Assembly (NCBI GenBank): GCA_031292145.1
Contig: JARLHR010000116.1
Span: 1-46,173, forward strand
Reading direction: 5' to 3'
DNA from: Clostridium sp.
GTDB taxonomy: Bacteria > Bacillota > Clostridia > Clostridiales > Clostridiaceae
DNA length: 46,173 bases
Position numbers and translations under genes: made by a program. A model generated the notes under the pieces. That model was not told where the DNA came from. It saw only the letters and a list, made by a program, of their open reading frames with translations, and did no database searches. Below are positions 20,202 to 36,129 of this stretch, piece after piece (the stretch's first letter is position 1; each line of letters opens with the position of its first letter).

Positions 20202-21998
20202 TTAAATCCAAGCTCCATTATCACTTAAAACATATCCATCAACAGTTGTATTAGCAAGCATTACCCCAAACTCATCACAGTAGTACCAAGTTCCTCCGTC
20301 ATTAATCCAACCAGTTTGCATCGCTCCTGATGAATTTAAATAGTACCAGCTGTCTCTAATATTTTGCCATCCTGTAGCCATGGTTCCACCATCTTTAAAG
20401 TAATACCAATAGCCTCCATCTTTTAACCATCCAGTAGCTTTAGTTCCATCAGTTTTACTATAAGTCCAACTTCCGTCAGTTGCTTTTGCCCAACCAACTA
20501 TTGTTGTGATTGCAGCTCCTGTTGTTGTAGCAGCTACTCCTCCTGTAGTTACTACTATATCCTTTTGCCCTGCATCAGAAGCCTTGTTATATAAAATTGA
20601 ATAAATCTCCTTATCTTCATCCCACACAATTGCATTGTCATCATTACTAGCAGATAAAGCTGACATGCCGCTATCCACTCTATATATGTCTTCAAATTTA
20701 TTATCCTTATTAATCCATTTTTTTACGTATCCATCTCCTAAGCAATAAAGATTTCCTCCTCCGATAGTCCAAGCATCAGCATCAGTTTCATCATATTTAC
20801 CTATGTCTGTATAATAGTAGCCTTTATCTAATTTCAACTCAACATCTTGAGCATAATACTTTTTCTCACTATTATCATAAAAATGGCTGGCAATACCGGT
20901 CATACTGCCTGTAATCAAAGCCACATCTCCTCCAGCCCAGTCTACGGAAGTACCTAAGTCAGAAACATCTCCCAATCCAAATACATGTGCTTCATTGCCA
21001 TCGGAATCCGTAATAAAACAAGTCATTACATCTTTAGCATACTTTATTCCATCTATGGTATCTGAAGCTTGAGCTTTCGAAATTTTTTGCATGACTCTTA
21101 CCCCATCACCATAAGAAATTTGACTATGATGATTATTTTTTCCTCCAAATTCTACTTTATCTGTTATATTCTCATACGTATCATCAGAAGCACCTTTTTC
21201 TTTTCTCCATATTGTAAGTACTGCTGTTCTATATATAGCATCAGGTTCCTCATCAAATGCATTGTCATTTTTAATTTGTGATTTTAACTCATATTCCTTT
21301 CCATTCTCCTCTATTTCACTAGTATCCCTTGTATTTGTGAAAGTAACGCTCGAACCAGAAGTTGTGTATACAGGAACCTTTCCTAAATTATAATCTGCAT
21401 CTATATAGTTTCCATTGATATCAGAAAGAATTGTAGATGTTGTCTCTCCATTTGTATTAGCTGTCTTTAAGTTATATGTGAATTTACTCCATATTCCCGT
21501 TGCACCTGCTATATATACATTTAAAGGATCACTACCCATAGCATCAGCTTTAATAGTATTATTAGTATAATCTGATTCCTTAAATCTTCCATCATTATCT
21601 TCTTTAATATTATTCCTTACCTTTCTATCCATATTGTCTAGTTGAGTTTGGCAATCATATTCCTCCGTCTGTTTACCAGTTGACACATTGACGTAATAAT
21701 AATTTCCATTACTATCTTTAAATCCTGCATACTTATTTTCATAAAAACCACTTAATGTATAATTTGCATCAATATCTAATTTAGTATATTTACCATCTGC
21801 TAAAAAATAAAAAGCTTCATCTTGGTTACTTAGCTCTGCATCAATAATGTATCTATTATTTCCCTCGGCTGTAGCACTATAAATAGTACCTTCCACGGTA
21901 TTGGCCTCTTTTAAATCAACTGCCATAGCTGGAACCAATGATACAATAGAAGCAGTTGCTGCTAATAAACTTGTAATCTTTGTAACTCTTTTTAACAT
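20202..21998 (-). CDS. Large secreted protein with cell-wall-binding repeats
   Basis: A 598-residue exported protein: a signal peptide (MLKRVTKITSLLAATASIVS, cut near AMA), then a long region of about 450 residues with several short YYY/WYY-containing beta segments (for example GNYYYVNVSTGKQ, KGYYYTDIGKYDE). The last 95 residues hold four wall-binding repeats such as GWLKDGGYWYYFKDGGTMAT, ending in ANTTVDGYVLSDNGAWI. The other repeat protein in this window ends its repeats the same way. ATG 21998 has AGGGGGAA before it. The middle region matches no enzyme I know. It is probably a wall-anchored surface protein transcribed alone. Confidence 0.8.
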   Translation of the reverse strand: MLKRVTKITSLLAATASIVSLVPAMAVDLKEANTVEGTIYSATAEGNNRYIIDAELSNQDEAFYFLADGKYTKLDIDANYTLSGFYENKYAGFKDSNGNYYYVNVSTGKQTEEYDCQTQLDNMDRKVRNNIKEDNDGRFKESDYTNNTIKADAMGSDPLNVYIAGATGIWSKFTYNLKTANTNGETTSTILSDINGNYIDADYNLGKVPVYTTSGSSVTFTNTRDTSEIEENGKEYELKSQIKNDNAFDEEPDAIYRTAVLTIWRKEKGASDDTYENITDKVEFGGKNNHHSQISYGDGVRVMQKISKAQASDTIDGIKYAKDVMTCFITDSDGNEAHVFGLGDVSDLGTSVDWAGGDVALITGSMTGIASHFYDNSEKKYYAQDVELKLDKGYYYTDIGKYDETDADAWTIGGGNLYCLGDGYVKKWINKDNKFEDIYRVDSGMSALSASNDDNAIVWDEDKEIYSILYNKASDAGQKDIVVTTGGVAATTTGAAITTIVGWAKATDGSWTYSKTDGTKATGWLKDGGYWYYFKDGGTMATGWQNIRDSWYYLNSSGAMQTGWINDGGTWYYCDEFGVMLANTTVDGYVLSDNGAWI

Positions 21999-22030
21999 AG
22001 TTATTCCCCCTGTTAACATTTTATTTGTTT

Positions 22031-22057: not shown

Positions 22058-22112
22058 AGTATACTAGTCTATTTTACATAATATCCCTTGACTAATTATT
22101 TTTTAATAGATT

Positions 22113-22135
22113 CTAATAACATATTCTGTTATTAG
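22113..22135 (-). terminator. Weak hairpin after the symporter gene
   Basis: CTAATAACA and TGTTATTAG pair with a 5-base loop just after the symporter stop. The sequence that follows on the minus strand has no long T-run. Confidence 0.4.
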
Positions 22136-22138
22136 CAA

Positions 22139-23485
22139 TTATTTATGTCTCTCAGCTAAATCTGCAAGCATCTTATCTTTCATATTATCAATTCTATAAA
22201 GCAACATTAATCCAATACTAATAACTAAAGTAATTATTGGCAGCCCTACATAACAAAATGAAATTGCACTCAATGAACGTGCTGTTTGTTCCACATTAGG
22301 TACGAAACCGCCAATTGATAAAATTAATGACATTACTACTGCTGCAATTCCTGCACCACAATTAACCCCCATTGTTCCAAATGTTGTAAGCAATCCTTGT
22401 GCGCGAACACCAGTCTTCCATTCACCATAATCAACTACATCTGCAAACATTACAAAGACAACACTTTGTCCTCCACCTAATCCAGCTGCCGCAACTGCAA
22501 TACCTACAAATGTTAATACCAAAGATTGATTGGTAGTAGCTAAGTATAAAATTCCTTGACCAATTATACTTATTACAAATCCTAATATAGCTATGTTTCT
22601 ATTTTTCATCCTTTTTGCAAGCATAGGAATAAATGCTATGGCAACTATCATAGACACAGAATATAATGCATTTGCTGCTGATGCAATATTTACATTACCA
22701 ATATTGTATTTAAAGAAATACACAGTTGCTTGCATTTTTACAACTATTCCAATAAATATAACCAAATTCATAATAGTTAATATCCAACATGGGAAATTAC
22801 GCACCAATGATTTTAAGCTTTCTTTTAAATGTGGTTCCTGTGCCTTTTCTAACACTACTCTTTCTCTTGTATTTTTAAATGTAGTCATTAATAGAGCAAA
22901 AGAAATTATTGCAAATACTACCATAGTCAACATAAATCCTCTTCTAGGATTTCCTTGTCCTAAAATACTTACTAGTGGTAATGTAAGTGCTCCTGCTATT
23001 ATAACTGCTACTTGCCCTGCAATAGTTCTAAAAGAGTTAGCTTTAAATCTTTCTTCAGAATTAGTTGTTAAACTTGGCAACATTGCTGTTATAGGAGAAC
23101 CAACAGCTAAAGCTAAAAAATTAAATACAATATAAGTAAAGTACATGTATGCTATCTTCCCCATATTATTTAACTCTGGTACAGCAACTGTCATTACAGC
23201 AATTACAGCATATGGTCCAGCAAACCATAAAAACCAAGGTCTACACTTTCCCCATCTTGTATTAGTTTTATCAATTAATACACCAATAACTGGCCCTGAA
23301 ACACCATCCAAAATACGAACAATTAAGAAAAGTGTTCCAACTGTTGCTACATCCATTCCAATTACATCTGTGTAATAAAACATTAAGAAAGAAGCAATAG
23401 CAGTAAAAATAATATTATATCCCGAATCTGATACACCGTAACTTAATTTTTCTTTTAGCGATAGTTTAACATTTGAATCTGACAT
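22139..23485 (-). CDS. GPH-family sugar:cation symporter
   Basis: A 448-residue, 12-helix transporter of the glycoside-pentoside-hexuronide:cation family (like UidB, XylP, YicJ). It shows the N-terminal YGVSDSGYNIIF, the family core RILDGVSGPVIGVLIDKT followed by RWGKCRPWFLW, and the central cytoplasmic loop. It imports a glycoside without phosphorylating it. GGGGGAA precedes the ATG. It is transcribed alone from a promoter with two TGTCAACCGGTT operators, the same sites found before the esterase operon and the fructokinase/sucrose phosphorylase operon. It is therefore the likely entry route for their common substrate. Confidence 0.9.
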   Translation of the reverse strand: MSDSNVKLSLKEKLSYGVSDSGYNIIFTAIASFLMFYYTDVIGMDVATVGTLFLIVRILDGVSGPVIGVLIDKTNTRWGKCRPWFLWFAGPYAVIAVMTVAVPELNNMGKIAYMYFTYIVFNFLALAVGSPITAMLPSLTTNSEERFKANSFRTIAGQVAVIIAGALTLPLVSILGQGNPRRGFMLTMVVFAIISFALLMTTFKNTRERVVLEKAQEPHLKESLKSLVRNFPCWILTIMNLVIFIGIVVKMQATVYFFKYNIGNVNIASAANALYSVSMIVAIAFIPMLAKRMKNRNIAILGFVISIIGQGILYLATTNQSLVLTFVGIAVAAAGLGGGQSVVFVMFADVVDYGEWKTGVRAQGLLTTFGTMGVNCGAGIAAVVMSLILSIGGFVPNVEQTARSLSAISFCYVGLPIITLVISIGLMLLYRIDNMKDKMLADLAERHK

Positions 23486-23556
23486 TTATAAATTCCCCCT
23501 TATAAATTTAGTAAAAGATAATTTAATTAAAACGATTTCTTTTTGTATACATTTTG

Positions 23557-23616
23557 TGTCAACCGGTTACATATTTATATTGTATACTCTTTTTTCAAAT
23601 ATGTCAACCGGTTACA
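23557..23616 (-). promoter_or_regulatory. Promoter with two LacI-type operators before the symporter gene
   Basis: TGTCAACCGGTTACA occurs at 23557-23571 and at 23602-23616, with centres 45 bases apart. On the minus strand the upstream copy contains the -35 TTGACA (23607-23602), followed by a 17-base spacer and -10 TACAAT (23584-23579). The second copy lies at or just after the start of transcription. A partial cre (TGAAAACGCTCTG) lies just upstream. Repressor binding would block the promoter directly. Confidence 0.85.
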
Positions 23617-23739
23617 CAGAGCGTTTTCATATTTTTATATATTAATAAATATCTTAAAAATATGAAACTTACTTATCCAATTGTAGTAATTTTTTATTAA
23701 GGATAATGTATTTAATTAGTTAAGAGTTAATAGTGAGAC

Positions 23740-24147
23740 TTAACGACGAAGTATGATGCAAAATAGACTATAGATATCCAATTTAAGACTTATACTTATA
23801 ATTAGAATATGTTTCCATACTAGAAATTCCATACATCTTTGTGAAACAGGCATTTGAAATTGAGCTGTGAAGGTTCTTAGTACAAGGTTGTACCATTTAC
23901 TGCTTGTCAAAAAGTGAGAGTCCAAATTTTATATTTGGCTACTCGAACTTTCTCCATGGAGCAATTTATATTTGGAGCATGCAGAAATGGGCACAACCTT
24001 GTGCTTAGAACCTTCCAATGAAAATTTCATAGTCCTGTGGAACAAAAATGTATGGAATTTCGGTAGACTACCACATAAGTCTAAGTCCATGTTTGGATAT
24101 CTATAGCATCTTTGGTCTATTATTTTCTTTCATGTGCCTTATTTACA
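23740..24147. repeat. Large imperfect fold-back element
   Basis: Arms beginning CTATAGATATCCAA at 23768 and 24106 (inverted) run inward for well over 100 bases with many matches, such as AAATTCCATACAT and AAGGTTCT..CACAAGGTTGT, enclosing the centre near 23940. The outer right end (24104-24146) has the GAAAGAAAATAA and GGCACATGAAAG parts of the dispersed repeat family. A 61-codon ORF inside is a by-product of the palindrome. No transposase is present, so this is a non-autonomous element or its remains. Confidence 0.65.
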
Positions 24148-25344
24148 ACATGAACTTAAAATAATATTTCTTAACTTTCTAGTAAGTGTAGTAGTTCCTG
24201 CATCAGTCTTTTGAATCATGAATAAAAATGTTAAATCATCCTTTGGACAATTGCAGAAGTATGGACCAAGCCAGCCATCCCATCCATATTCTCCAAGACT
24301 TCCTATATCTCCAGCCATACTGCACTCTGTCATTACACGCATTAGGTTTCCATAACTATGCCCACATAGTGTCCCCCAATTATCAAAACCCTTCTGCTGC
24401 ACGACATTTAAAGTTCCTGATATTAGATATTTCACTGTGTGAGGTCGCAAAATTTGAACCCCCTCTAAACTTCCATTATTCATAAGCATCTTAGCAAATC
24501 TCGCATAATCATCTACAGTAGAAACTAAACCTGCTCCGCCAGATTCAAATTCTGGATTCCTATCCATCTTATGAACTATGCCTAGGTGATTTCCAGTGTA
24601 AAGTTCTAAATCTCCCTTACTATTGTCAGCATAAGTTTTTACAAGGCGATCTCTTTTTTCATCTGACAGCCAAAATCCAGTATCTTTCATGCCTAGGGGT
24701 TCAAATAACTCTTCTTTTAAAAATTCTCCAAACCTTTTGCCACTAACTATTTCAACAATAGCCCCTAATACATCAGCTGAGGTACCGTAAGTCCAAGAAG
24801 TCCCTGGTTGAAAGGCTAGAGCACATCTTCCTAACTTATTCATAGCTTCTATAGTATTCATTGGTTTATCACCTAGCAACCTACTATCTATCTCCTGAAA
24901 TAAAGCTTCAGTATCCTTCCCAGCTCTATGTTCTCCACCATAAACTAAACCAGATGTCATAGAAAGTAAATCTTTAAGGGTTACTTCCCTTTCGACCGGA
25001 ATCAAGCAATCACCTGCGTCAACCATCTGATCTTTAAATCCTGGAAGATACTTGCTTACTGGCTCATATAAATCAATTTCTCCACGTTCAAGCAGAATCA
25101 TCACTGCAGTTGCTGTAATAGGTTTAGTCATGGAATATAATCTAAAAATAGAATCTCTTTTGATTGGAGCTCCACTTTTCCTATCTGCTAAGCCGTCTTC
25201 GTGATATAAAATTTCTTCTCCATCTTTTATTATCATTAAATTTGCGCCCGCTGTAAAATTATTGTCTATGTGATTTTTTAATATTTTTTTTATCTGATTT
25301 AATTCTGTATTTCCAAACACTGTTATCTGCTCCTCTGTTAACAT
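24139..25344 (-). CDS. Serine esterase of the beta-lactamase fold (family VIII)
   Basis: A 401-residue serine hydrolase of the class C beta-lactamase/EstB family. The nucleophile motif SMTK (S71, K74) follows FRLY, the tyrosine motif is YGTS (Y186) in WTYGTSADVLGAIVE, and GGAGLVSTVDDYARF is typical of the esterase branch. There is no signal peptide, so it acts in the cytoplasm on esters of small molecules rather than on wall peptides. Its ATG overlaps the stop of the deacetylase gene (ATGTTAA, 7 bases shared), so translation is coupled. It is the last gene of the five-gene operon. The substrate is inferred to be an acylated sugar or glycoside. Confidence 0.88.
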   Translation of the reverse strand: MLTEEQITVFGNTELNQIKKILKNHIDNNFTAGANLMIIKDGEEILYHEDGLADRKSGAPIKRDSIFRLYSMTKPITATAVMILLERGEIDLYEPVSKYLPGFKDQMVDAGDCLIPVEREVTLKDLLSMTSGLVYGGEHRAGKDTEALFQEIDSRLLGDKPMNTIEAMNKLGRCALAFQPGTSWTYGTSADVLGAIVEIVSGKRFGEFLKEELFEPLGMKDTGFWLSDEKRDRLVKTYADNSKGDLELYTGNHLGIVHKMDRNPEFESGGAGLVSTVDDYARFAKMLMNNGSLEGVQILRPHTVKYLISGTLNVVQQKGFDNWGTLCGHSYGNLMRVMTECSMAGDIGSLGEYGWDGWLGPYFCNCPKDDLTFLFMIQKTDAGTTTLTRKLRNIILSSCCK

Positions 25345-26168
25345 ATTTTTATAGTTTTCCTTGATTTTATCTCAACTGGTATTCCATTGAATTCTATCCA
25401 AGTTGAAATTGCAGATGGATTATGCACAAGCGAAAAATCGGTAGAGAGCTGTAATCTGTCTAGAGCATCAAGATAATCTACTATTTGAATATTTGTTGCA
25501 TACCAGACATCATTCCTATTGCCTATATATTCGCAAAACTTCTCTATGCTACGCCAATTATTATCTAAATCAAATTCATAGCTATGTCCCCATAAATAGA
25601 AAAGCCCTAAACCATGAAATTCTCCTTCAATAAACTTTTCCGCTATCTCCATCAAATGTGGATCATTATGATGAGCTGTAGGATTCCATTCCAAATAGTT
25701 TGAAGGTAAAGTGAAATTCCCATGATTGTTTACTGTTCTTGAATAAACCACTCCAAGAGCTTCTAATACCTGAAAAACTGTTTTATTATAAGTGCCGAAT
25801 GCATAAGCCATTCCCCTTACAGGATACCCCAGCATCTTCTCATGATTTTTTCTATCTTGCAGAATTTCCTCAATCATAAGTTCCTTAGGTATATCTGTTA
25901 GTGAAAGGTGTTTTAATCCATGAATAGCAACCTCATGTCCTTTATATAAATCAGCCACCTCATTGTTGTTTATTCTTTCTATAACTAAATCCTTTATTAC
26001 ACAAGTCCCATCTTCTCCTTGAAGTCCTGAATTTAGGTTAAAGGTAGCTTTTAGATCATATCTATTAAAGATTTCAACTAGTTTTTTATCCTGAATAACA
26101 CCATCATCATAGCTTAAAGTAAATGCTTTTCTTTTTCCCTCTGGAAAAAGTTTAGTTATTCTAGACAT
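25338..26168 (-). CDS. Polysaccharide deacetylase (CE4-like)
   Basis: A 276-residue NodB-homology protein that removes acyl groups, usually N- or O-acetyl, from sugars with a bound metal. The first motif is TLSYDDG (D21, D22), the metal histidines are in AIHGLKHLSL, and later motifs include GMAYAFGTYN and FYLWGHSYEFD. No signal peptide is present, unlike most wall-acting members, so a cytoplasmic, small substrate is likely. A GTG two codons upstream touches the GGAGG, so ATG 26168 with seven-base spacing is used. It sits 17 bases after the CE1-like esterase and overlaps the next gene. Confidence 0.87.
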   Translation of the reverse strand: MSRITKLFPEGKRKAFTLSYDDGVIQDKKLVEIFNRYDLKATFNLNSGLQGEDGTCVIKDLVIERINNNEVADLYKGHEVAIHGLKHLSLTDIPKELMIEEILQDRKNHEKMLGYPVRGMAYAFGTYNKTVFQVLEALGVVYSRTVNNHGNFTLPSNYLEWNPTAHHNDPHLMEIAEKFIEGEFHGLGLFYLWGHSYEFDLDNNWRSIEKFCEYIGNRNDVWYATNIQIVDYLDALDRLQLSTDFSLVHNPSAISTWIEFNGIPVEIKSRKTIKIC

Positions 26169-26185
26169 ATTCACACCTCCACATT

Positions 26186-26977
26186 TTATTCGTTAGTCCA
26201 AAGTATTGCTTTTTCTATATATTCATTCCAGAAATCCCAATTGTGAATACCTGGTCCTTCTGTATAAGTATGCTCTATTCCCTCTGAAACTAGGAAATCA
26301 TGATAGCTTTGATTTTCTTTGATCAGGAAATCCTCTGTTCCGCAAGCCATATATATTTTAGGAATATATTTATTTTCTTTTTTTGATTTAAGAATAAGCG
26401 CCTCTGGATCTTTATCGCTTCCTAATAATTGATTCAAATCTCCGAAAACCCTATTGTAATATTTATAATCAGCCATCATATCCTTATGATCAACTGGAAT
26501 TCCTGCAATATTACGAATTATAAGAGCTGAAGATAATGCAATAATGCAGCTGAAATTGTGAGAATATTTTAATCCATTCCTTATTGCTCCATACCCTCCC
26601 ATGGAATATCCGCCTATAAATGTATCTTCTCTTTTATCTGATAAATGGAACATCTTTCGTGTGAACTCAACTAACTCATTTCCAACAAATTCTCCAAATA
26701 ACTCTCCTCTATCAGTATCATCTAGATAGAAGCTATTTTCACCTGAAGGCATAAACACTGCAACATTATGCTTTAGAGACAACTCCTGAATCTTACTTCC
26801 ACAAACCCAATCATGATGATTTCCAGAGTAACCATGTAAAAGATAAATAGCCTTCATAGGTCCTTTCGGAGCTTCACTCATTCCTGGTATCTCAATAGTA
26901 TCTATTGGTAAAAGAGCATTAAAATTAACAAGTTTTTTTAATGTCTTTGAATAAAAATTTATTTGTAAAAATGCCAT
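26186..26977 (-). CDS. EstA-like alpha/beta-hydrolase esterase (CE1-related)
   Basis: A 263-residue alpha/beta-hydrolase like the tributyrin/aryl esterases EstA of Lactococcus and Streptococcus, related to CE1 carbohydrate esterases. The N-terminus MAFLQINFYSKTLKKLVNFN with ALLP is the family start. The oxyanion region is LLHGYSG, the nucleophile GGYSMGG (S125), the acid in CGTEDFL (D216) and the histidine in GPGIHNWDFW (H245), so the triad is complete. GGAGGA precedes the ATG. It has no signal peptide. It is the third gene of the operon, 16 bases after the HSL esterase, and probably removes short acyl or aromatic acyl groups. Confidence 0.9.
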   Translation of the reverse strand: MAFLQINFYSKTLKKLVNFNALLPIDTIEIPGMSEAPKGPMKAIYLLHGYSGNHHDWVCGSKIQELSLKHNVAVFMPSGENSFYLDDTDRGELFGEFVGNELVEFTRKMFHLSDKREDTFIGGYSMGGYGAIRNGLKYSHNFSCIIALSSALIIRNIAGIPVDHKDMMADYKYYNRVFGDLNQLLGSDKDPEALILKSKKENKYIPKIYMACGTEDFLIKENQSYHDFLVSEGIEHTYTEGPGIHNWDFWNEYIEKAILWTNE

Positions 26978-26993
26978 TTTTTTATCCTCCTCA

Positions 26994-27015
26994 TTATTTT
27001 TTTGATTGTGCCTTA
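26994..27015. repeat. Dispersed repeat end inside an esterase gene
   Basis: On the minus strand it reads TAAGGCACAATCAAAAAAAT followed by AA, the same as the repeat end at 41149-41169 over 21 bases. It encodes the final codons and stop of the HSL esterase. Confidence 0.6.
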
Positions 27016-27950
27016 ATATTTAACGCCTCCGACAGTGCATTTATACACTCACTTCTAGCTCGCCTGCTGATCTTTGCATTATTAAAATTTGAATCAAAGC
27101 CATGAAAACATCCTGGGTATAAATGAAATTCAACAGGAACACCTGCCTGAGCTAATCGTGCAACATACTCTAAGGTTTCATCCCTGAAAGGATCCAGTTG
27201 TCCTATAAATGTATATGCGGGCGGAAGCCCTTTCAAATCCTTAGCTCTGCTCGGAGCAGCATAGTAAGGAATTTGATCTGAAGTGTTATTACCTAAATAC
27301 ATTTTCCATGCAATCTTATTAGCTTCTCTATTCCACGCTTTCGGTAAGTTTTCTTCGTTGATTTCATAACTTGAAGGGGTTACATTTCGATCGTCTAGCA
27401 TTGGATACAAAGGCATCTGAAATGCAATTTTTATTTCACCTCTATCACGAGCCATCAAGGCCAGTGCTGCTGTCAAGCCACCTCCAGCACTGGCTCCTGC
27501 AATTGCAATTCTTGAAGTATCTATTTTTAGTTCTTCTGCATTATCAACTGTCCATTTAAGTCCCGCATAACAATCTTCTATTGCCGCCGGATATGGATGC
27601 TCTGGTGCCAGCCTATAATCAATTGACACTACAACACAATTGACTTCCTCAACAAAACACTCACATAAACCATCATCTCCATCAGGATTACCAAGTATAT
27701 AGCCACCACCATGAATCCAAACTACTACGGGCAATTTTGCCTTTTGTCTATCCTTAGGTTCATAAATTTTAATCAATAGTTCTGATTCTAATCCCTTAAT
27801 CCTACGAGTGGTTGTGAGTACATTAACAGACTTTTCTATAGGTGGTACCGTGAAGTTCCTCATCTCCTTCAAATCCTTATTTAAATCAATTTTTTCATTA
27901 CTTTGCAATATTGGCAATAATTCTGGTAAAACCTTTTCTTCGTAAGACAT
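26994..27950 (-). CDS. HSL-family alpha/beta-hydrolase esterase
   Basis: A 318-residue hormone-sensitive-lipase-type esterase. The oxyanion motif HGGG is at residues 80-83, the nucleophile in AGASAGG (S154), the acid in GQLDPFRDE (D253) and the histidine in CFHGFD (H283). AGGGAGA precedes the ATG. There is no signal peptide. The last residues (ALNIKAQSKK) and the stop are encoded by a 22-base stretch that equals the end of the dispersed repeat seen at 33239-33260 and 41149-41169. The gene tail was therefore probably replaced or extended by repeat insertion without loss of the catalytic part. Second gene of the five-gene operon. Confidence 0.9.
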   Translation of the reverse strand: MSYEEKVLPELLPILQSNEKIDLNKDLKEMRNFTVPPIEKSVNVLTTTRRIKGLESELLIKIYEPKDRQKAKLPVVVWIHGGGYILGNPDGDDGLCECFVEEVNCVVVSIDYRLAPEHPYPAAIEDCYAGLKWTVDNAEELKIDTSRIAIAGASAGGGLTAALALMARDRGEIKIAFQMPLYPMLDDRNVTPSSYEINEENLPKAWNREANKIAWKMYLGNNTSDQIPYYAAPSRAKDLKGLPPAYTFIGQLDPFRDETLEYVARLAQAGVPVEFHLYPGCFHGFDSNFNNAKISRRARSECINALSEALNIKAQSKK

Positions 27951-28006
27951 AAATCTCCCTCCTATAAAATATTTATTTATTCAATAAACTCTTCTTTGCA
28001 TTAAGT

Positions 28007-28813
28007 TTACAAATATATAAATGGTTCTTTTGCATCTATAAAATGTACAGATGTTCCTTCCAGCATTGGCTCCAGCCATTCAGCCATATATTTCATACCT
28101 GCTTCTTCACTACGCTCATGTCCTAATACAAGCATAGCTTTATTCATACCTAATGCAGCAGCATCACGAATATAAGGACATAAAGTCCATTCTGTAATAT
28201 CACCACATATCATAACATCTAAATTTTGTTCTTTCATTAGAATCATAGGCATTTCTTCTACACCAAGTCCTAAGCTTCCTCCGCCAACTAAAAGTCCTGC
28301 TCTTTTACATCTAGTATCTGGGGAACCAACAATTTGGATAACCTCCATTTCTAATTTTTCTTTAAAAAACTCTGCTAACTCTCTTAAAGACATCTCTGGT
28401 ATCTCATAGCAATGTGGAAATTGCAGTCCCTTTATCAAATAATCTTTCCATCCAATTTCTTTTAGCATTCCCTCATAAATCAAATCAAAAGGTGCAGCAT
28501 GCATATGATCGTGAAAGCGCCAAATTGCAATACCATGTTCATCAAGAATTTTTTTCTTTTCTAAGTATATTGGATCATCTTTTATCCATTCCATTTTATC
28601 CACACCTGTGTAATAAGTTGGTTCATGAGTAATAATAAAGTTTGCTCCACAATCAATAGCTTGTCTGATTACGTCTACAGTGGCCATAAAAGTAGTTACA
28701 ACACCTGTTACTTCCGTATCAAAACTACCACTTATAAGTTGATCACAAGTTTGTTCAAATTTAACACCACCAAACTTGTTCATAATTCTATCAATAATTT
28801 CTTTTACTTTCAC
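28007..28813 (-). CDS. NIF3-like dinuclear metal protein
   Basis: A 268-residue member of the NIF3/DUF34 (GTP cyclohydrolase I type 2-like) family, with metal ligands in THEPTYYTG (H63) and in LGHERSEEAGMKY near the C-terminus. The start is GTG 28813 with AAGGAA upstream; the protein begins MKVKEIIDRIM as in relatives, and no better ATG exists. It is the first gene of the operon that goes on with three esterases and a deacetylase. NIF3 proteins have no settled function; placement first in a sugar-ester operon with its own LacI operator is unusual and hints at a hydrolase role for this subgroup. Confidence 0.85.
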   Translation of the reverse strand: MKVKEIIDRIMNKFGGVKFEQTCDQLISGSFDTEVTGVVTTFMATVDVIRQAIDCGANFIITHEPTYYTGVDKMEWIKDDPIYLEKKKILDEHGIAIWRFHDHMHAAPFDLIYEGMLKEIGWKDYLIKGLQFPHCYEIPEMSLRELAEFFKEKLEMEVIQIVGSPDTRCKRAGLLVGGGSLGLGVEEMPMILMKEQNLDVMICGDITEWTLCPYIRDAAALGMNKAMLVLGHERSEEAGMKYMAEWLEPMLEGTSVHFIDAKEPFIYL

Positions 28814-28867
28814 TACCTATTCCTTCTTTCTTATTATCTACAAATTATAATTTAGTGAATAAATAAA

Positions 28868-28942
28868 AGTTAAGAGCTAATAGATAAGAAGTATACTTGT
28901 AAAAACTCGAAGAGTTTTATCCTTAACTCTTACCTCTTAACT
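28868..28942 (-). promoter_or_regulatory. Folded leader of the esterase operon
   Basis: In the transcribed leader, AGTTAAGAG pairs with CTCTTAACT (28868-28876, 28934-28942), and an inner hairpin AAAACTC/GAGTTTT is followed by T-rich sequence. Both hairpins could act as weak terminators, so attenuation is possible. The AGTTAAGAG..TAATAG part also occurs near 23718, so it may just be repeat sequence. Confidence 0.35.
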
Positions 28943-28967
28943 CATTCACAAATTCCTATTTATACAC

Positions 28968-29006
28968 ATTATATACCGATTACATTCGTGTGTCAAACGG
29001 ATGACA
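28968..29006 (-). promoter_or_regulatory. Promoter and LacI-type operator of the esterase operon
   Basis: The palindrome TGTCAAACGGATGACA (28991-29006) contains the minus-strand -35 TTGACA (28996-28991). A 17-base spacer leads to a perfect -10 TATAAT (28973-28968). A half site (CCGATTACA, 28977-28985) lies in the spacer. This is the same arrangement as before the symporter and fructokinase genes. Confidence 0.88.
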
Positions 29007-29159
29007 TACATATGAATTAATTTTTTATAGGTTTTATATCATTATATATTTTGCGAAAATCTATAATTATTTTTTACTATAGAATAATTCATATATACTA
29101 GATTAGCTATTTATAATACATTTATATAATAAATTTTGGAAAACCATTTTATTTTTCTA

Positions 29160-29198
29160 TGTTAATCGGTTGACATAGTTATTAAATCTAATTATACT
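29160..29198 (+). promoter_or_regulatory. Promoter and LacI-type operator of the fructokinase/sucrose phosphorylase operon
   Basis: The palindrome TGTTAATCGGTTGACA (29160-29175) ends in the -35 TTGACA, followed by a 17-base spacer and -10 TATACT (29193-29198). It is the third promoter in this region with the -35 embedded in the operator. Confidence 0.88.
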
Positions 29199-29259
29199 GA
29201 AAATATAAAAAAGCACTTTGAAATTATTAACTTTAAATATATAAATAGGAGGAATAAAA

Positions 29260-30216
29260 ATGTTTCACTTTAACGATACTTTTAATTTAAAAAATAACGC
29301 TATTGATGTATTTACAATAGGAGAATTGTTAATAGATATGATATCTACTGATTATGGCGATAATTTTAATTGCAATAATTATACTAAATACTTTGGCGGT
29401 TCACCTGCTAATATTGCTATGAATATCAAAAGATTAGGAGGAAATTCCACTATTGCAGCATGCGTAGGCAAAGATGGCCTTGGTGAATTCCTAATCCAAC
29501 ATTTAAAAGATAATACTATAGATACTAGTTATATCAGTAGAGTTGACTACTCTACCAGCATGGTACTTGTTACTAAAAGTAAAACAACACCTATACCAAT
29601 ATTTTATCGTGGTGCAGATTACAACTTAGAATATAATACAAGCATTAATTTAGCATTAAAAAATTCTAAAATAGTTCATTTTTCATGCTGGCCTATCTCT
29701 CAAAAGAATTCAAGAAATACCATTGAAAAAGTACTTGAAAAAGCTAGAAAAAATAATGTTCTCATCGGATTTGATCCTAATTATCATGATATGATTTGGG
29801 AACGTGGTCACGATGGAATAGAATACATCAAAAATCTTGTAAGCAAGATTGATATCATTAAACCTTCTGAAGTTGATGCTGAAAGAATATTTGGACCAGA
29901 TACACCTGAAAACCAAGTCAAGAAATTTATAGATTTAGGTGCAAAACTTGTAATAATGACTCTTGGCAAAGATGGTGCAATAGTTACCAATGGCATGGAA
30001 ACTATTACCTTTGAAACTCTTGCAACAGAAATAGTTGATACTACTGGTGCTGGAGATGCATTTTGGTCAGGATTTTATACTGGAATAATTAAAGGCTATA
30101 CTCTAAAAGATGCTTTAAATCTTGGCTTTGGAGTAAGTGCCTTTAAACTAAAATATGTAGGTGCTGTTGCGAAGTTACCAACTATTGAAGAAGTTAAAAC
30201 TATTTATAATATATAA
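29260..30216 (+). CDS. scrK: Fructokinase (PfkB family)
   Basis: A 318-residue ribokinase-family kinase that phosphorylates fructose released in the cytoplasm. The sugar-binding GGSPANIAMN is at residues 46-55 and the catalytic DTTGAGDAFWSGF near the C-terminus (D266). About 15 residues precede the usual start (DVFTIGELLIDM), but AGGAGGA is correctly placed before this ATG. Sucrose phosphorylase follows 21 bases later in the same operon. Together they turn sucrose into glucose-1-phosphate and fructose-6-phosphate. Confidence 0.92.
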   Translation: MFHFNDTFNLKNNAIDVFTIGELLIDMISTDYGDNFNCNNYTKYFGGSPANIAMNIKRLGGNSTIAACVGKDGLGEFLIQHLKDNTIDTSYISRVDYSTSMVLVTKSKTTPIPIFYRGADYNLEYNTSINLALKNSKIVHFSCWPISQKNSRNTIEKVLEKARKNNVLIGFDPNYHDMIWERGHDGIEYIKNLVSKIDIIKPSEVDAERIFGPDTPENQVKKFIDLGAKLVIMTLGKDGAIVTNGMETITFETLATEIVDTTGAGDAFWSGFYTGIIKGYTLKDALNLGFGVSAFKLKYVGAVAKLPTIEEVKTIYNI

Positions 30217-30236
30217 ACATAGAGGAGGATTTTAAA

Positions 30237-31706
30237 ATGGCAATTAAAAATCAAGTACAACTTATTACTTATCCTGATTCTCTTGGTGGAGATTTAAAGA
30301 CTCTTAATGATATACTTTTAAAACATTTTTCTGATATATTTAAAGGTGGCGTTCATATACTTCCTCCATTCCCTTCTTCAGGAGACAGAGGATTTGCACC
30401 TTTAACTTACTTTGAAATTGAGCCAAAATTCGGTACTTGGGAAGATATCAGACGCATTGGTGAAAATTTTGATGTCCTCTTAGACTTAATGGTAAACCAT
30501 ATTTCTAAAAAATCCGAATTTTTTCAGGATTTTTTAAAATATGGACGAAAATCAGAATATGCTGATCTTTTCCTTACCTTAGATAAAATTTGGAGTGACG
30601 GAAAGCCTGCTCAAGAAGATATTTCTAAGATGTTCTTACGTAGAACACAGCCTTACTCAACTTTTACTATAAGTGAAACTGGTGAAGAGGAAACTGTTTG
30701 GACTACCTTTGGAAAAGAAAATCCATCTGAACAAATAGATTTTGATATTAATTCCCAAAAAGTTAAAGATTTATTAAAGGATTTTCTTACAAACTTCAGC
30801 AAACAAAATGTTAAAATAGTTAGATTAGATGCTGTTGGCTATGTAATTAAAAAATTAGGGACTAGCTGTTTCTTCGTTGAACCAGAAATTTATAAATTTA
30901 TAGACTGGATTACAGAACTAGCTGCTTCTTTAGGACTTGAACTGCTTCCTGAAGTCCATGCTCATTACACAACTCAATTTAAGTTAGCACAACATGGAAG
31001 CTGGATATATGATTTTATACTTCCATATAGAATTCTTGATACGCTAATACACAAATCTAGCTCAGAACTTTACAAATATTTAAAGGTTCGTCCTCATAAA
31101 CAATTTACAATGCTAGATTGCCATGATGGTATTCCTGTTAAGCCTGACTTAGATGACTTAATAAATACTAAAGACGCTAGAAATTTAGTTGATATCTGTA
31201 TAGAAAGAGGTTCAAACTTAAGTCTTATTTACTCTGATGCACATAAGGCTGAGGATGGCTTTGATGTTCACCAAATAAGATGTTCTTATTATTCAGTTTT
31301 AAACTGTGATGATGATGCTTATCTTGCCGCAAGAGCAATTCAATTTTTTACCCCTGGTATCCCTCAAGTATACTACGTAGGCCTACTCGCAGGAAAAAAT
31401 GATGAAGAAAATGTAAACCTGACTGGTGAAGGCCGTGAAATAAATAGACACAACTTTACAGTTAAAGAAATTGAACAAGAAATACAAAAAGAAGTTGTTC
31501 AAAGACTTCTTAAGCTCATAAGATTTAGAAATGAATATCCAGCATTTAATGGCGAATTCAATATTATAAATTCTGAAAATGATGAAGTAATTCTCTCATG
31601 GAAAAAAGATAAAAAATTCTGTACATTAAACATATGTCTTCAGACAAACAAATCAGTTATTGAATATGTAGATCATAATGGGGATATATTAATATACAAT
31701 ATTTAA
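30237..31706 (+). CDS. gtfA: Sucrose phosphorylase (GH13_18)
   Basis: A 489-residue GH13 enzyme of the sucrose phosphorylase type, of the usual length. It splits sucrose with phosphate into alpha-glucose-1-phosphate and fructose. The N-terminus NQVQLITYPDSLGGDL and the acceptor-site region GFAPLTYFEIEPKFG are typical. The catalytic residues are D198 in RLDAVGY, E239 in LLPEVHAHY, and D297 in LDCHDGIPVKPDL. AGGAGGA precedes the ATG. It follows fructokinase and precedes the LacI gene. Related enzymes act on glucosylglycerate or sucrose-6-phosphate, but fructokinase next door supports free sucrose. Confidence 0.93.
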   Translation: MAIKNQVQLITYPDSLGGDLKTLNDILLKHFSDIFKGGVHILPPFPSSGDRGFAPLTYFEIEPKFGTWEDIRRIGENFDVLLDLMVNHISKKSEFFQDFLKYGRKSEYADLFLTLDKIWSDGKPAQEDISKMFLRRTQPYSTFTISETGEEETVWTTFGKENPSEQIDFDINSQKVKDLLKDFLTNFSKQNVKIVRLDAVGYVIKKLGTSCFFVEPEIYKFIDWITELAASLGLELLPEVHAHYTTQFKLAQHGSWIYDFILPYRILDTLIHKSSSELYKYLKVRPHKQFTMLDCHDGIPVKPDLDDLINTKDARNLVDICIERGSNLSLIYSDAHKAEDGFDVHQIRCSYYSVLNCDDDAYLAARAIQFFTPGIPQVYYVGLLAGKNDEENVNLTGEGREINRHNFTVKEIEQEIQKEVVQRLLKLIRFRNEYPAFNGEFNIINSENDEVILSWKKDKKFCTLNICLQTNKSVIEYVDHNGDILIYNI

Positions 31707-31750
31707 TAATATAAGTAGCTATTCCAGATTAATAGCTACTTATATTATTA
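31704..31750 (+). terminator. Perfect 20-bp hairpin after sucrose phosphorylase
   Basis: Arms 31704-31723 and 31731-31750 are exact complements (ending GTAGCTATT and AATAGCTAC) with a 7-base loop. The left arm begins at the stop codon. The sequence after it is AT-rich without a long T-run. Confidence 0.7.
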
Positions 31751-31786
31751 TTGTACTAAAAATCTCATTGGTGTATTATTTAATTG

Positions 31787-31854
31787 ATATGAAAAATATA
31801 AAATGAATAATACACAATGTAGTACAGTATACTGCACTTTATTATTTTTCATAT
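31787..31854. other. Inverted repeat before the LacI gene
   Basis: ATATGAAAAATA at 31787-31798 pairs with TATTTTTCATAT at 31843-31854, and a small palindrome CAGTATACTG lies between. It is in the likely promoter region of the LacI gene, which lacks the CCGG operator found at the three target promoters. Confidence 0.35.
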
Positions 31855-31890
31855 TAAATGATAAAATTCATATTTGTAAAGGGTGTTTTT

Positions 31891-32862
31891 ATGGCAACAA
31901 TTAAAGATGTCGCTAAAATAGCTGGAGTTACAGTTACTACTGTATCCAGAGTTTTAAATGATAGAGGATATATAAGTGATGCTACAAGAAAAAAGGTTCA
32001 TGATGCTATGGAAGAGCTTGATTATAAGCCAAATGAATTGGCTAGATCTTTGTTTAGAAAAAAATCTAATATTATAGGTCTTATAATTCCAAATGTATCA
32101 CATCCTTTTTTTGCTGAATTAAGCAATTATATAGAATATTATGCTTATAAAGAAGGATATAAAATTTTACTATGCAATTCTTACCAAGATAGCGTCAAAG
32201 AAAAAGATTATATAGAAATGTTAAAAAGAAATCAAGTTGATGGAATCATAATGGGGAGCCATACTTTAGAAACTTCAGAATATATTAATACAGATCTGCC
32301 TATTGTAGCAATTGATAGAAACTTATCAGATAAAATTCCATTTATCACATGTGATAATTACCATGGTGGAGTTTTAGCCACAAACCTGTTAATAAATAAA
32401 GGCTGCAAAAAATTAGCACATATAAGTGGTCCTTTAGAAATAAATACTCCAGTAACTAAAAGATATCAAGCCTTCATTGATGTTACTAGAGAAAAAAATA
32501 TTGAAGGTATTGTTATTGAAGCAAAATTAGATACCTTTGAAGGATATAAGAAAATAGTCTTTAAATTATTTCAGGATCACCCTGATATAGATGGAATATT
32601 TGCCAGCAGTGATATAATCGCTGCTTCAATTATTAACGTTGCTCATTATCTTGGTAAAAAAATAACAGAAGACTTAAAAATAGTAGGCTATGATGACATT
32701 AGTACTGCTTCACTAGTAGTTCCTTCTCTTACTACAATAAAGCAGCCTATTGAATATATGGGGAAATTAGCTATTGAAATTTTAATAAAACAAATGGAAA
32801 AAAAGCAAGTAAATATAGAAAATATTTTACCTATAAATTTGATAGAAAGAATGACTACTTAA
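31891..32862 (+). CDS. LacI-family regulator of the sucrose/esterase regulon
   Basis: A 323-residue LacI/GalR repressor. The helix-turn-helix covers residues 4-25 (IKDVAKIAGVTVTTVSRVLN), followed by the hinge YKPNELARSLFRKKSN and an effector domain (IIGLIIPNVSHPFFAEL). ATG 31891 has AAGGGTG six bases upstream; the earlier Met 11 codons before gives an unnatural N-terminus. It follows sucrose phosphorylase. The three palindromes of the form TGTCAACCGGTTGACA nearby are typical LacI-family operators, and this is the only LacI gene next to them, so it is their likely repressor. Confidence 0.9.
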   Translation: MATIKDVAKIAGVTVTTVSRVLNDRGYISDATRKKVHDAMEELDYKPNELARSLFRKKSNIIGLIIPNVSHPFFAELSNYIEYYAYKEGYKILLCNSYQDSVKEKDYIEMLKRNQVDGIIMGSHTLETSEYINTDLPIVAIDRNLSDKIPFITCDNYHGGVLATNLLINKGCKKLAHISGPLEINTPVTKRYQAFIDVTREKNIEGIVIEAKLDTFEGYKKIVFKLFQDHPDIDGIFASSDIIAASIINVAHYLGKKITEDLKIVGYDDISTASLVVPSLTTIKQPIEYMGKLAIEILIKQMEKKQVNIENILPINLIERMTT

Positions 32863-32978
32863 TTTACTTTAAAACAATATGGCAAACTGTTAATCTAAGG
32901 TAGTATTATTAATTTCTATATTTTTAGTATACATTATTTTGGAAATATGATTTATAAAAATTATATACTTACAAAAAC

Positions 32979-33008
32979 AGGACTAGAGAGTTACCACTTT
33001 CTAGTCCT
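32979..33008 (+). terminator. Hairpin after the LacI gene
   Basis: AGGACTAGA and TCTAGTCCT pair (32979-32987, 33000-33008) with a 12-base loop, about 115 bases after the LacI stop. There is no T-run, so the call is weak. Confidence 0.4.
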
Positions 33009-33055
33009 TAGATAAATTATAATTAAATATATTTTACTTCATTAATTTGATATAT

Positions 33056-33260
33056 AAGGCACATGAAAATAAATAACAAGTCCAAAGCTGCCATGATTAT
33101 TTTTCATCAGGCAAGGAAGTAAAGTGCCATCATAGCGGGCCTATTATGGCATTTTGCTAACGCAGGATGATGGAAAATAGGCACATTAGAAAAGAGCAGC
33201 TATGCTGCAATACGGAACTTTTCTGGCAGATGGACTTGTTATTTTTTTGATTGTGCCTAA
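33056..33260. repeat. Complete MITE-like palindromic element
   Basis: About 205 bases with inverted ends: left AAGGCACATGAAAATAAATA (continuing ACAAGTCCA) and right, inverted, TTAGGCACAATCAAAAAAAT (continuing AACAAGTCCA). Inside is a second hairpin GCCATCATAG/CTATTATGGC (33126-33151). A 32-base stretch (33194-33225) occurs again, identical, at 41206-41237. Its right end stops one base before the stop codon of the GH1 gene. It has no coding capacity. Confidence 0.75.
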
Positions 33261-33261
33261 T

Positions 33262-34737
<1,476 letters not shown>

Positions 34738-34767
34738 TCATATTAATGAATAATTAATCATTCATCA

Positions 34768-36129
34768 TTAATCTCTTTCTAATTCTTCTATCTTATCCTC
34801 AAATTGTGGTAAATGTTTCTTATGTGCTATTAGCATTTCATCTAATAAGTCTTTTGCAATTGTTCCACTTGGAACTAATGGATTTATTGTAAATGCATGA
34901 AGGGCCTTATTATAATTTCCTGTAACTGCAGCTGAAATTGTTGTTTCTTCCATTCCCTTCATTATTTGAACCATTCCTCTTGGTGCTGGATCAAATTTTC
35001 CCCAATTTAATGGTTGTGGTCCATTTGATGTTATAATACTTGAAACTTCTACAATGCAATCATATGGCAAATCGCTTATAGCTCCATTATTCTTTGTACT
35101 GACTACCATATTAGTTTTCTTATCATTATATATTGAAGCAATTAATTCACAAGCAGCGTCACTATAATGGGTTCCACCTCTTTTAGTTAATTGTTCTGGT
35201 TTGTAATCTAATTTAGGATCTTTATATAACTCAAACAATTCTGCTTCTGTTTTCTTTACAACTTGTGCTCTAGTTTCATCTTTTCTATATTCTTCAATTT
35301 CATCTCTTAACATATCATCTGTAATGTAGTAATATCGGTGATATGGACAAGGTAATATTCCTAAATCTTGAATTTGTTCATAAACAAACTTAATATCTTT
35401 AATATTCGCAACACCAGAATCTTTTTTCTCTTCTTTCTTTTGTGCCGGATCATAAAGCTTGCCTATTAATTCTTCAGTTCTTTCATTACCTTCTTTATCC
35501 CATACTCTATGCCAATGGAAATGATTTAATCCTGCAAATTTAAATGTCAATTCATCTGCTGGAATTCCTAAAGCTTCACTACATCTATGTATACAATTAA
35601 TTGGAACATTACATAAACCAACTGTTTTATCCCATCCACCGTATTTAATTGCTGCCTCTGTCACCATTCCTGATGGATTTGTGAAGTTAACTAACCATGC
35701 ATTTGGGCATAAATCCCTCATATCATCGATTATATCTAATATTACTGGAATTGTTCTAAAAGCTTTAAACATACCTCCAGCACCATTGGTCTCTTGTCCA
35801 ATTATTCCATGACTTAAAGGAATTCTTTCATCTTTTATCCTAGCATCTAAAAGCCCAACTCTAAATTGAGTTGATACAAAATCTGCGTCCTTAAGTGCTT
35901 TTCTTCTATCTAAAGTTAGGTTTACTTTCCAATCAAGTCCTGCCGCCTTAACCATTCTTTGAGCCATAGCTCCAACTATCTCTAATTTTTCTTTTCCATC
36001 TTCAATATCAACAAGCCATATTTCTTTAATTGGTAATTCATCTTTTCTTTTTATAAAACCTTCAATTAATTCAGGAGTATAACTTGATCCTCCACCAATA
36101 GTAACTATTTTGATTTCTTTCTTTTCCAT
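34768..36129 (-). CDS. 6-phospho-beta-glucosidase (GH4, NAD/Mn dependent)
   Basis: A 453-residue GH4 glycosidase that uses NAD+ and a divalent metal in a redox-elimination mechanism on 6-phospho-beta-glucosides. The Rossmann start IVTIGGGSSYTPELI, the substrate/metal motif GLCNVPI (C173), and GLNHFHW (H203) are all present. GGGAGG lies about 12 bases before the ATG. It heads a two-gene unit with the GH1 enzyme downstream. Together with the PTS genes at 38.7-40.9 kb it makes a complete cellobiose or beta-glucoside pathway with two mechanistically different hydrolases. Confidence 0.93.
   Translation of the reverse strand: MEKKEIKIVTIGGGSSYTPELIEGFIKRKDELPIKEIWLVDIEDGKEKLEIVGAMAQRMVKAAGLDWKVNLTLDRRKALKDADFVSTQFRVGLLDARIKDERIPLSHGIIGQETNGAGGMFKAFRTIPVILDIIDDMRDLCPNAWLVNFTNPSGMVTEAAIKYGGWDKTVGLCNVPINCIHRCSEALGIPADELTFKFAGLNHFHWHRVWDKEGNERTEELIGKLYDPAQKKEEKKDSGVANIKDIKFVYEQIQDLGILPCPYHRYYYITDDMLRDEIEEYRKDETRAQVVKKTEAELFELYKDPKLDYKPEQLTKRGGTHYSDAACELIASIYNDKKTNMVVSTKNNGAISDLPYDCIVEVSSIITSNGPQPLNWGKFDPAPRGMVQIMKGMEETTISAAVTGNYNKALHAFTINPLVPSGTIAKDLLDEMLIAHKKHLPQFEDKIEELERD

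Follow-up and report, generated by a model that had tools for sequence, protein, structure and literature searches.

GH13_18 holds several specificities: its loop A reads N(L/V)D(I/L/V)YQ in sucrose phosphorylases and GFDVHQ in TtSPP, the sucrose 6F-phosphate phosphorylase (SPP) of Thermoanaerobacterium thermosaccharolyticum, and the motif KNxYYQ is tied to enzymes that are strictly specific for sucrose 6F-phosphate (PMC7178133). TtSPP is promiscuous and also uses plain sucrose (PMC7178133), and its residues Arg134 and His344 bind phosphate (PMC6720575). Sucrose is described as being phosphorylated by the phosphotransferase system (PTS) on entry, or else the source of sucrose 6F-phosphate is given as 'currently unknown' (PMC7178133). 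In Ruminococcus gnavus, AgaSK, a fused alpha-galactosidase and sucrose kinase, lies beside an SPP (PMC6521584). The locus considered here is found on a stretch of 46,173 nucleotides from a Clostridium species (the window, which lies on contig C278; the draft genome comprises 282 contigs and 6.34 Mb), where a TtSPP-like phosphorylase and a sugar kinase stand together with an importer, a NIF3 protein, several putative esterases and a LacI-family regulator.

The favored interpretation, to which a probability of roughly 55% is assigned, is that these genes constitute a LacI-controlled regulon for the uptake and breakdown of acyl-bearing sucrose. All nine genes that an earlier sequence-only reading of this DNA had named are recovered, at the same positions, from the open reading frames (ORFs) and family profiles:

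22139..23485, minus strand: GPH-family sugar:cation symporter with its own promoter (TIGR00792 366 bits, cut-off 231; PF13347)
24139..25344, minus strand: family VIII-like (beta-lactamase fold) esterase (PF00144 205 bits; SMTK motif)
25338..26174, minus strand: CE4-like polysaccharide/sugar deacetylase (PF01522 62.7 bits)
26186..26977, minus strand: CE1-like esterase of the EstA/FphF type (PF00756; PDB 4rgy, 6vh9, 2uz0)
26994..27950, minus strand: hormone-sensitive-lipase (HSL) type esterase (PF07859 234 bits; PDB 7b4q, 4e-103)
28007..28813, minus strand: divergent member of the DUF34/NIF3 family, whose gene opens the esterase operon (PF01784 70.6 bits, cut-off 23.4; PDB 9g9u, 8e-55)
29260..30216, plus strand: PfkB-family sugar kinase (PF00294; nearest PDB entry 3hj6, 'Fructokinase', 7e-80)
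30237..31706, plus strand: GH13_18 phosphorylase, TtSPP-like (PDB 6s9v, 5e-239; next best 9e-130)
31858..32862, plus strand: LacI-family regulator ORF (PF00356 and PF13377)

The five minus-strand genes for the NIF3, HSL, CE1-like, CE4-like and family VIII-like proteins are separated by 56, 16, 11 and -7 bases, and consequently they are likely to form a single operon. The GPH symporter gene is located downstream of this operon, and the PfkB, GH13_18 and LacI genes run the opposite way. (The LacI start is more likely to be at 31891, since the DNA-binding domain begins at residue 14 of the ORF and the copy in the related genome G023 has 323 amino acids.) As judged from these genes, an acylated sucrose is the best available reading of the substrate, because the sole enzyme for a glycosidic bond is of the sucrose type (by family profiles, none of the nine regulon genes other than GH13_18 encodes an enzyme that cleaves glycosides), because the esterases are apparently cytosolic, and because the esterase set varies between related loci while the sucrose end stays constant. 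Plants make sucrose esters, both phenylpropanoid and acetyl sucroses.

The predicted operators give good support to joint control of the importer, the esterase operon and the kinase-phosphorylase genes by a single LacI protein, since they are located at the three best promoters and are kept in relatives, and since their core word is confined to this regulon genome-wide. The control features are the following:

23557-23568 and 23602-23613, minus strand: two LacI-type operators, AACCGGTTGACA, at the GPH promoter (word search)
28991..29006, minus strand: operator TGTCATCCGTTTGACA, covering the -35 box at the promoter before NIF3 (14/16 to the palindrome)
29160..29175, plus strand: operator TGTTAATCGGTTGACA, covering the -35 box at the promoter before PfkB (kept in L010, L011 and L017)
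28996-28968, minus strand: NIF3 operon promoter (12/12)
29170-29198, plus strand: kinase promoter (11/12)
23607-23579, minus strand: GPH promoter, its -35 box overlapped by the upstream operator of the two (11/12)

The word AAYCGGTTGACA occurs in the window at 23557 (-), 23602 (-) and 29164 (+). When one mismatch is permitted, the number expected in the window is 0.16, and 0 of 100 shuffles reach three. Within the entire 6.34 Mb genome there are three exact matches, all of them in this regulon (two before GPH and one before PfkB), and the backward control of the word has 0 matches genome-wide. A scan of 22100-33300 for sigma-70 type promoters yields 59 matches, which is near the 61.6 of shuffles; the top three (12/12, 11/12 and 11/12) precede NIF3, PfkB and GPH, and each coincides with an operator. 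These three promoters consist of TTGACA, a 17-base spacer, and then TATAAT, TATACT or TACAAT, and at each of them TTGACA is the right arm of the LacI-type operator. G023 (L010), C. acidisoli (L011) and L017 retain the two divergent operators at 13 or 14 of 16 positions, and the G023 copy L107 retains those of the GPH promoter, with one change in the second. A chance origin of the operators is rejected by the shuffles, the genome-wide word count and the coincidence with the three best promoters, and the earlier proposal of one regulon with matching operators at all three promoters is borne out by the same results. The LacI protein would bind to these predicted operators.

The phosphorylase, on the other hand, is not what it was first taken to be. 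The sequence-only reading had called it a sucrose phosphorylase, but the window GH13_18 carries GFDVHQ at residues 341-346, and its Arg135 and His345 align to Arg134 and His344 of TtSPP (alignment with 6s9v, a sucrose 6F-phosphate phosphorylase and the closest solved structure); the loop-A motif of sucrose phosphorylases (EC 2.4.1.7) is absent. (It should be noted that the protein passes the cut-off of the TIGR03852 'sucrose phosphorylase' profile, 500 versus 334 bits; its best PDB match is still an SPP.) Loop A and the Arg/His pair, which are marks of a sucrose 6F-phosphate phosphorylase, rule out an ordinary sucrose phosphorylase; the enzyme would prefer sucrose 6F-phosphate, and the breakdown route probably passes through this compound. 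Because TtSPP is promiscuous with sucrose, the TtSPP-like assignment narrows the substrate without settling it. It also follows from the SPP-like character of the enzyme that the adjoining PfkB kinase may phosphorylate sucrose itself. A second GH13_18 in the same genome is of the sucrose phosphorylase type (NLDIYQ; L140).

A search of genome contigs with the NIF3 protein matches 95 stretches, 94 of which encode a relative, and the best 80 of these 94 were kept as loci. The closest named relatives of the window protein come from Clostridium species, and the loci lie on contigs of Clostridium, Paenibacillus, Cohnella, Lachnospiraceae and Anaerolineales. Locus maps reveal a recurring block that contains YesM-YesN, an ABC binding protein with two permeases, NIF3, esterases, a kinase and GH13_18, and its constant partner is the divergent NIF3 protein. 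By tblastn, the 80 loci contain the CE1-like esterase (63), the two permeases (66 and 60), PfkB (25), a P-loop kinase (20), DUF3237 (20), HSL (14), GDSL (11), a second CE1 type (7), GPH (7), CE4 (6) and family VIII (4). GH13_18 is present in 49 of the 80 (its gene being partial at a contig end in L030, L062, L028 and L074), and the same search finds an esterase in 48 of these 49, CE1-like in 45, and none in L052. Conserved linkage of esterases with GH13_18 in relatives had been set beforehand as a test on which the proposal could fail, and this linkage is what is seen. The esterases include further kinds: SASA and S33 in L016, CE2 in L090, family VIII in L063 and a BD-FAE-like protein in L077. 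A GPH carrier as the importer holds for the window, whose symporter passes TIGR00792, but not for its relatives, where the importer is mostly an ABC transporter (among 47 GH13_18 loci counted by tblastn, from which L030 and L062 are excluded, a permease is found in 36 and GPH in 2).

A minimal trio of CE1, GPH and NIF3 genes, with neither phosphorylase nor kinase, is present in L053 (7733-10813) and L057 (7586-10662), and these trios suggest that NIF3 works with the esterase and the importer. A small DUF3237 protein is seen beside the NIF3-esterase block, for example in L013, L015, L018, L040, L049, L055, L063 and L069, and a shorter DUF3237 relative replaces it in seven further loci, including Butyrivibrio.

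As typed by their motifs in 47 locus proteins and the window (L062 and L074 being left out), the phosphorylase and kinase types are exchanged as matched pairs. Of the 25 loci with PfkB, 24 have a GFDVHQ phosphorylase (the exception, L016, has NLDVYQ), and of 18 with the P-loop kinase, 17 have KNxYYQ (L030 ends before the loop). Five loci are scored as having no kinase: by tblastn L038 and L088 do have one, and none is seen in L069, a GFDVHQ locus; the other two, L055 and L084, carry the sucrose phosphorylase motif. The window PfkB itself misses the cut-off of the fructokinase equivalog NF006957 (133 versus 450 bits) and is proposed to be a sucrose 6F-kinase or a fructokinase. An unrooted PfkB tree of 30 rows, from which 11 of the 26 PfkB members of NIF3 loci (250 amino acids or less) are excluded and in which the window and G023 genes are each present twice, splits the 24 rows beside GFDVHQ phosphorylases from six others with support of 100/100. 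These six are from four sucrose phosphorylase loci and from the second PfkB of L105 and L106; sucrose phosphorylase loci sometimes have a PfkB (L134, L138 and L140 among nine in the genus). In L105 and L106 two different PfkB kinases are adjacent, together with a GFDVHQ phosphorylase, which suggests that the two have different substrates.

The pair of P-loop kinase and KNxYYQ phosphorylase is also found outside the NIF3 block, in L156 and L157. In L157 a GH36 alpha-galactosidase, the P-loop kinase and a KNVYYQ phosphorylase are adjacent, and since this layout resembles AgaSK of R. gnavus beside its SPP, phosphorylation of sucrose itself is likely for the P-loop type of kinase and plausible for the PfkB type. 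The layout of L157 is the sole tie of the P-loop kinase to AgaSK: searches with the kinase return only weak signal-recognition-particle matches in PDB and none in Pfam. The P-loop kinase is matched in 2 of 398 phylum-sample genomes, both times in a reading frame of about its own size.

The active sites expected of the operon products are present. Among rows filtered by length (the window being included, and possibly also its copy L009), Ser125, Asp216 and His245 of the CE1-like protein are invariant across 63 rows; His80-Gly-Gly-Gly, Ser154, Asp253 and His283 of the HSL protein, which has both HGGG and GxSxG, are invariant across 13; and Asp23, Asp24, His85 and His89 of the CE4-like protein, which presumably supply an Asp-His-His metal triad, are kept in 7 of 7. 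The family VIII-like protein combines the PF00144 beta-lactamase fold with an SxxK motif (SMTK), and its esterase activity is predicted from these. In NIF3, His63, Glu64, His101, His105, His232 and Glu236 are kept in 71 rows, a pattern that is compatible with a metal site. This NIF3 lies below the cut-off for the housekeeping protein (YbgI/SA1388 equivalog, TIGR00486; 58.1 versus 130.55 bits), and another NIF3 in the same genome has a far stronger match to PF01784 (266 versus 68.5 bits). To our knowledge, the function of the widespread NIF3 family is unsettled. A simple hydropathy check of the first 50 residues, rather than a signal-peptide predictor, finds no strongly hydrophobic stretch in any of the five operon products; this agrees with the earlier statement that they have no visible signal peptide, and the operon esterases appear to be cytosolic.

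A pathway can be drawn from these assignments. Without inducer, LacI would occupy its operators and thereby mask the -35 boxes from which the importer, the esterases and the kinase-phosphorylase pair are predicted to be transcribed. The GPH symporter would import an intact sucrose ester, and the cytosolic CE1-like, HSL and family VIII esterases, together with the CE4-like deacetylase, would strip different acyl and acetyl groups from it. PfkB would then phosphorylate the freed sucrose at C6 of the fructose, and GH13_18 would phosphorolyse the resulting sucrose 6F-phosphate to glucose 1-phosphate and fructose 6-phosphate; alternatively, sucrose would be cleaved first and the fructose phosphorylated after. 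NIF3, as the fixed partner, might by a guess perform a metal-dependent hydrolysis in the same line of deacylation. A broader proposal, put forward tentatively, is that the relatives share an undescribed conserved route, which would comprise import, exchangeable esterases with a dedicated NIF3-type metalloprotein, a kinase (of either of two unrelated types) that phosphorylates sucrose on the fructose C6, and a matching SPP.

The esterases could instead be hitch-hikers in a plain sucrose regulon, where sucrose or fructose as inducer would signal plant matter and the esterases would act on unrelated plant esters. This explanation, though unlikely, draws on the common occurrence of the kinase-phosphorylase pair without esterases and on the acceptance of sucrose by TtSPP (PMC7178133). 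However, the esterases recur with NIF3 and GH13_18 in both Bacillota and Anaerolineales, and as no signal peptide is seen, they would need imported esters. The frequency of esterases also argues against it. The controls are 32 GH13_18 loci identified by searches that did not start from NIF3 (17 from the genus of the window, one of these being from its own genome, 13 from a phylum sample, and 2 from the P-loop-kinase search). With cases that were found via the NIF3 protein, esterase hidden Markov models (HMMs) that were built from the case loci, controls that are unmatched by phylogeny and include some short contigs (4.3 kb for L161), and related loci that are not independent, the protein HMMs detect at least one esterase kind in 46 of the 49 NIF3-linked GH13_18 loci versus 2 of the 32 controls, and at least two kinds in 26 of 49 versus 0 of 32. 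The three case loci without an esterase by HMM are L034, L041 and L052, of which only L052 lacks one by tblastn. For 18 of the 32 controls, proteins with esterase-like motifs were also listed (35 in all) and judged by eye, along with a first look at L156 and L157; Pfam places another beta-lactamase-family protein about 3.7 kb from the GH13_18 fragment of control L132 and confirms the HSL of control L129.

It is improbable that the imported substrate is some other acylated glycoside, or an acylated phosphorylated sugar, and that GH13_18 acts on a different alpha-glucoside derived from it. The several specificities within GH13_18 (PMC7178133) would permit this, as would the finding of NIF3 and CE1 with importers and no GH13_18, but the window enzyme has the GFDVHQ loop A and the phosphate-binding Arg/His, and the clusters in which the pair is swapped carry KNxYYQ, the motif of strict sucrose 6F-phosphate enzymes (PMC7178133). 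Detoxification, in which the operon disarms harmful plant acyl-sugars or phenolic sucrose esters and sugar use is a by-product, fits the presence of several esterases within one operon and of related clusters in plant-named species (C. rhizosphaerae, C. zeae, P. phytohabitans), but is very hard to credit given that the operator is common to importer, kinase and phosphorylase, which points to carbon use.

Several observations nevertheless weigh against the acylated-sucrose reading, in addition to the esterase-free kinase-phosphorylase pairs and the plain sucrose accepted by TtSPP. The acyl-sucrose substrate and the deacylating activity are both predicted, and the esterase families concerned are broad. 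In two controls (L129, L130) an HSL esterase lies close to PfkB-GH13_18 although NIF3 is absent, and in L167 a NIF3 relative accompanies a GH13_18 of the sucrose phosphorylase type without an esterase of the kinds searched. No GH13_18 is seen in 31 of the 80 NIF3 loci, and no esterase of the kinds searched in 10 of the 80, some in each group being cut by contig ends; the GH13_18-less loci include the CE1-GPH-NIF3 trios, and thus the esterase-NIF3 unit may serve other sugars. Finally, this NIF3 type occurs in just 2 of 68 genus genomes, and 6 of the 8 full-length GFDVHQ copies in the genus sample are without the NIF3-esterase operon. As read from this distribution, kinase and phosphorylase therefore make up a sucrose module that can stand by itself, the NIF3-esterase block being an addition to it. 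In favor of the acylated-sucrose reading, GFDVHQ is present twice in G023, once alongside the esterase operon (L107) and once next to a PTS permease and GH4 (L126), and consequently the esterase-linked copy looks specialized. (The NIF3 relative of L167, at 58% to a reference, lies a few genes from its GH13_18.)

Other features of the window adjoin the regulon. At 20202-22019, next to the GPH gene, is a large protein with C-terminal choline-binding-type repeats, and an ORF with a similar start is found in the same place in L107. The neighboring genes at 33262-36129, for a GH1 6-phospho-beta-glucosidase and an ORF that by eye resembles GH4, are probably a separate unit, because there is no exact AAYCGGTTGACA there. 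The gap between the operon and the GPH gene contains one further element:

23769..24105, minus strand: dispersed long-hairpin repeat, about 337 nucleotides, separating the operon from the promoter of GPH (genome matches, folding)

The fold of 23755-24140 has a predicted energy of -141 kcal/mol (z -11.8). The repeat has 29 counted matches within the genome of the window, and 53 of 68 genomes of the genus also contain matches, 9 candidate places being scored per genome; its middle 43-70 nucleotides are found by themselves in several genomes, as though a small hairpin were nested in a larger one. A regulon RNA in this gap was considered and rejected, since the element is a dispersed hairpin repeat, 23769-24105 matches no Rfam family, and G023 carries other DNA at this position. 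The repeat is not part of the regulon.

Taken together, these results retain from the sequence-only reading the single regulon, the lack of visible signal peptides and the linkage of esterases with GH13_18, but replace the plain sucrose phosphorylase by a TtSPP-like enzyme and, for most relatives, the GPH carrier by an ABC transporter. Among open-licence papers, no description of this gene combination or of acylated-sucrose catabolism is present among the matches listed, and none linking NIF3 with sucrose phosphorylase, or treating PDB 9g9u, was found. If the proposal is true, a NIF3 subfamily gains a pathway and SPP enzymes gain a substrate source; the matched kinase-phosphorylase pairs offer another answer to the origin of sucrose 6F-phosphate, and the fixed tie to a divergent NIF3 provides a context in which the role of this widespread family can be tested.

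Compared with known systems, the locus shares with that of TtSPP the GFDVHQ loop A, the equivalents of Arg134 and His344, and an adjoining sugar kinase (PMC7178133, PMC6720575). Unlike the present locus, the T. thermosaccharolyticum operon has a PTS (PMC7178133). L105 and L106, which are of the TtSPP type, also have a LacI gene nearby, but they contain genes for ABC permeases, neither an esterase nor a NIF3 of the kinds searched is seen in them, and L105 has a GH32. The AgaSK-RgSPP locus of R. gnavus likewise pairs a kinase with a sucrose 6F-phosphate phosphorylase, but it is for raffinose and sucrose use, and the main text of the paper does not contain the words esterase or NIF3 (PMC6521584). 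On its genes alone, the window has the anatomy of an acylated-oligosaccharide utilization locus, with importer, cytosolic esterases, phosphorylase and shared control. The acetylated beta-mannan loci of Roseburia intestinalis differ in having a polysaccharide substrate, an outer endo-mannanase and GH130, and GH13_18, a sucrose kinase and NIF3 are unmentioned in the part of that paper available; however, they too have an importer and two different cytosolic acetyl esterases, followed by phosphorolysis (PMC6385246). By this analogy, the acetylated mannan pathway of R. intestinalis would be the best known counterpart to the way in which the present regulon is proposed to work.

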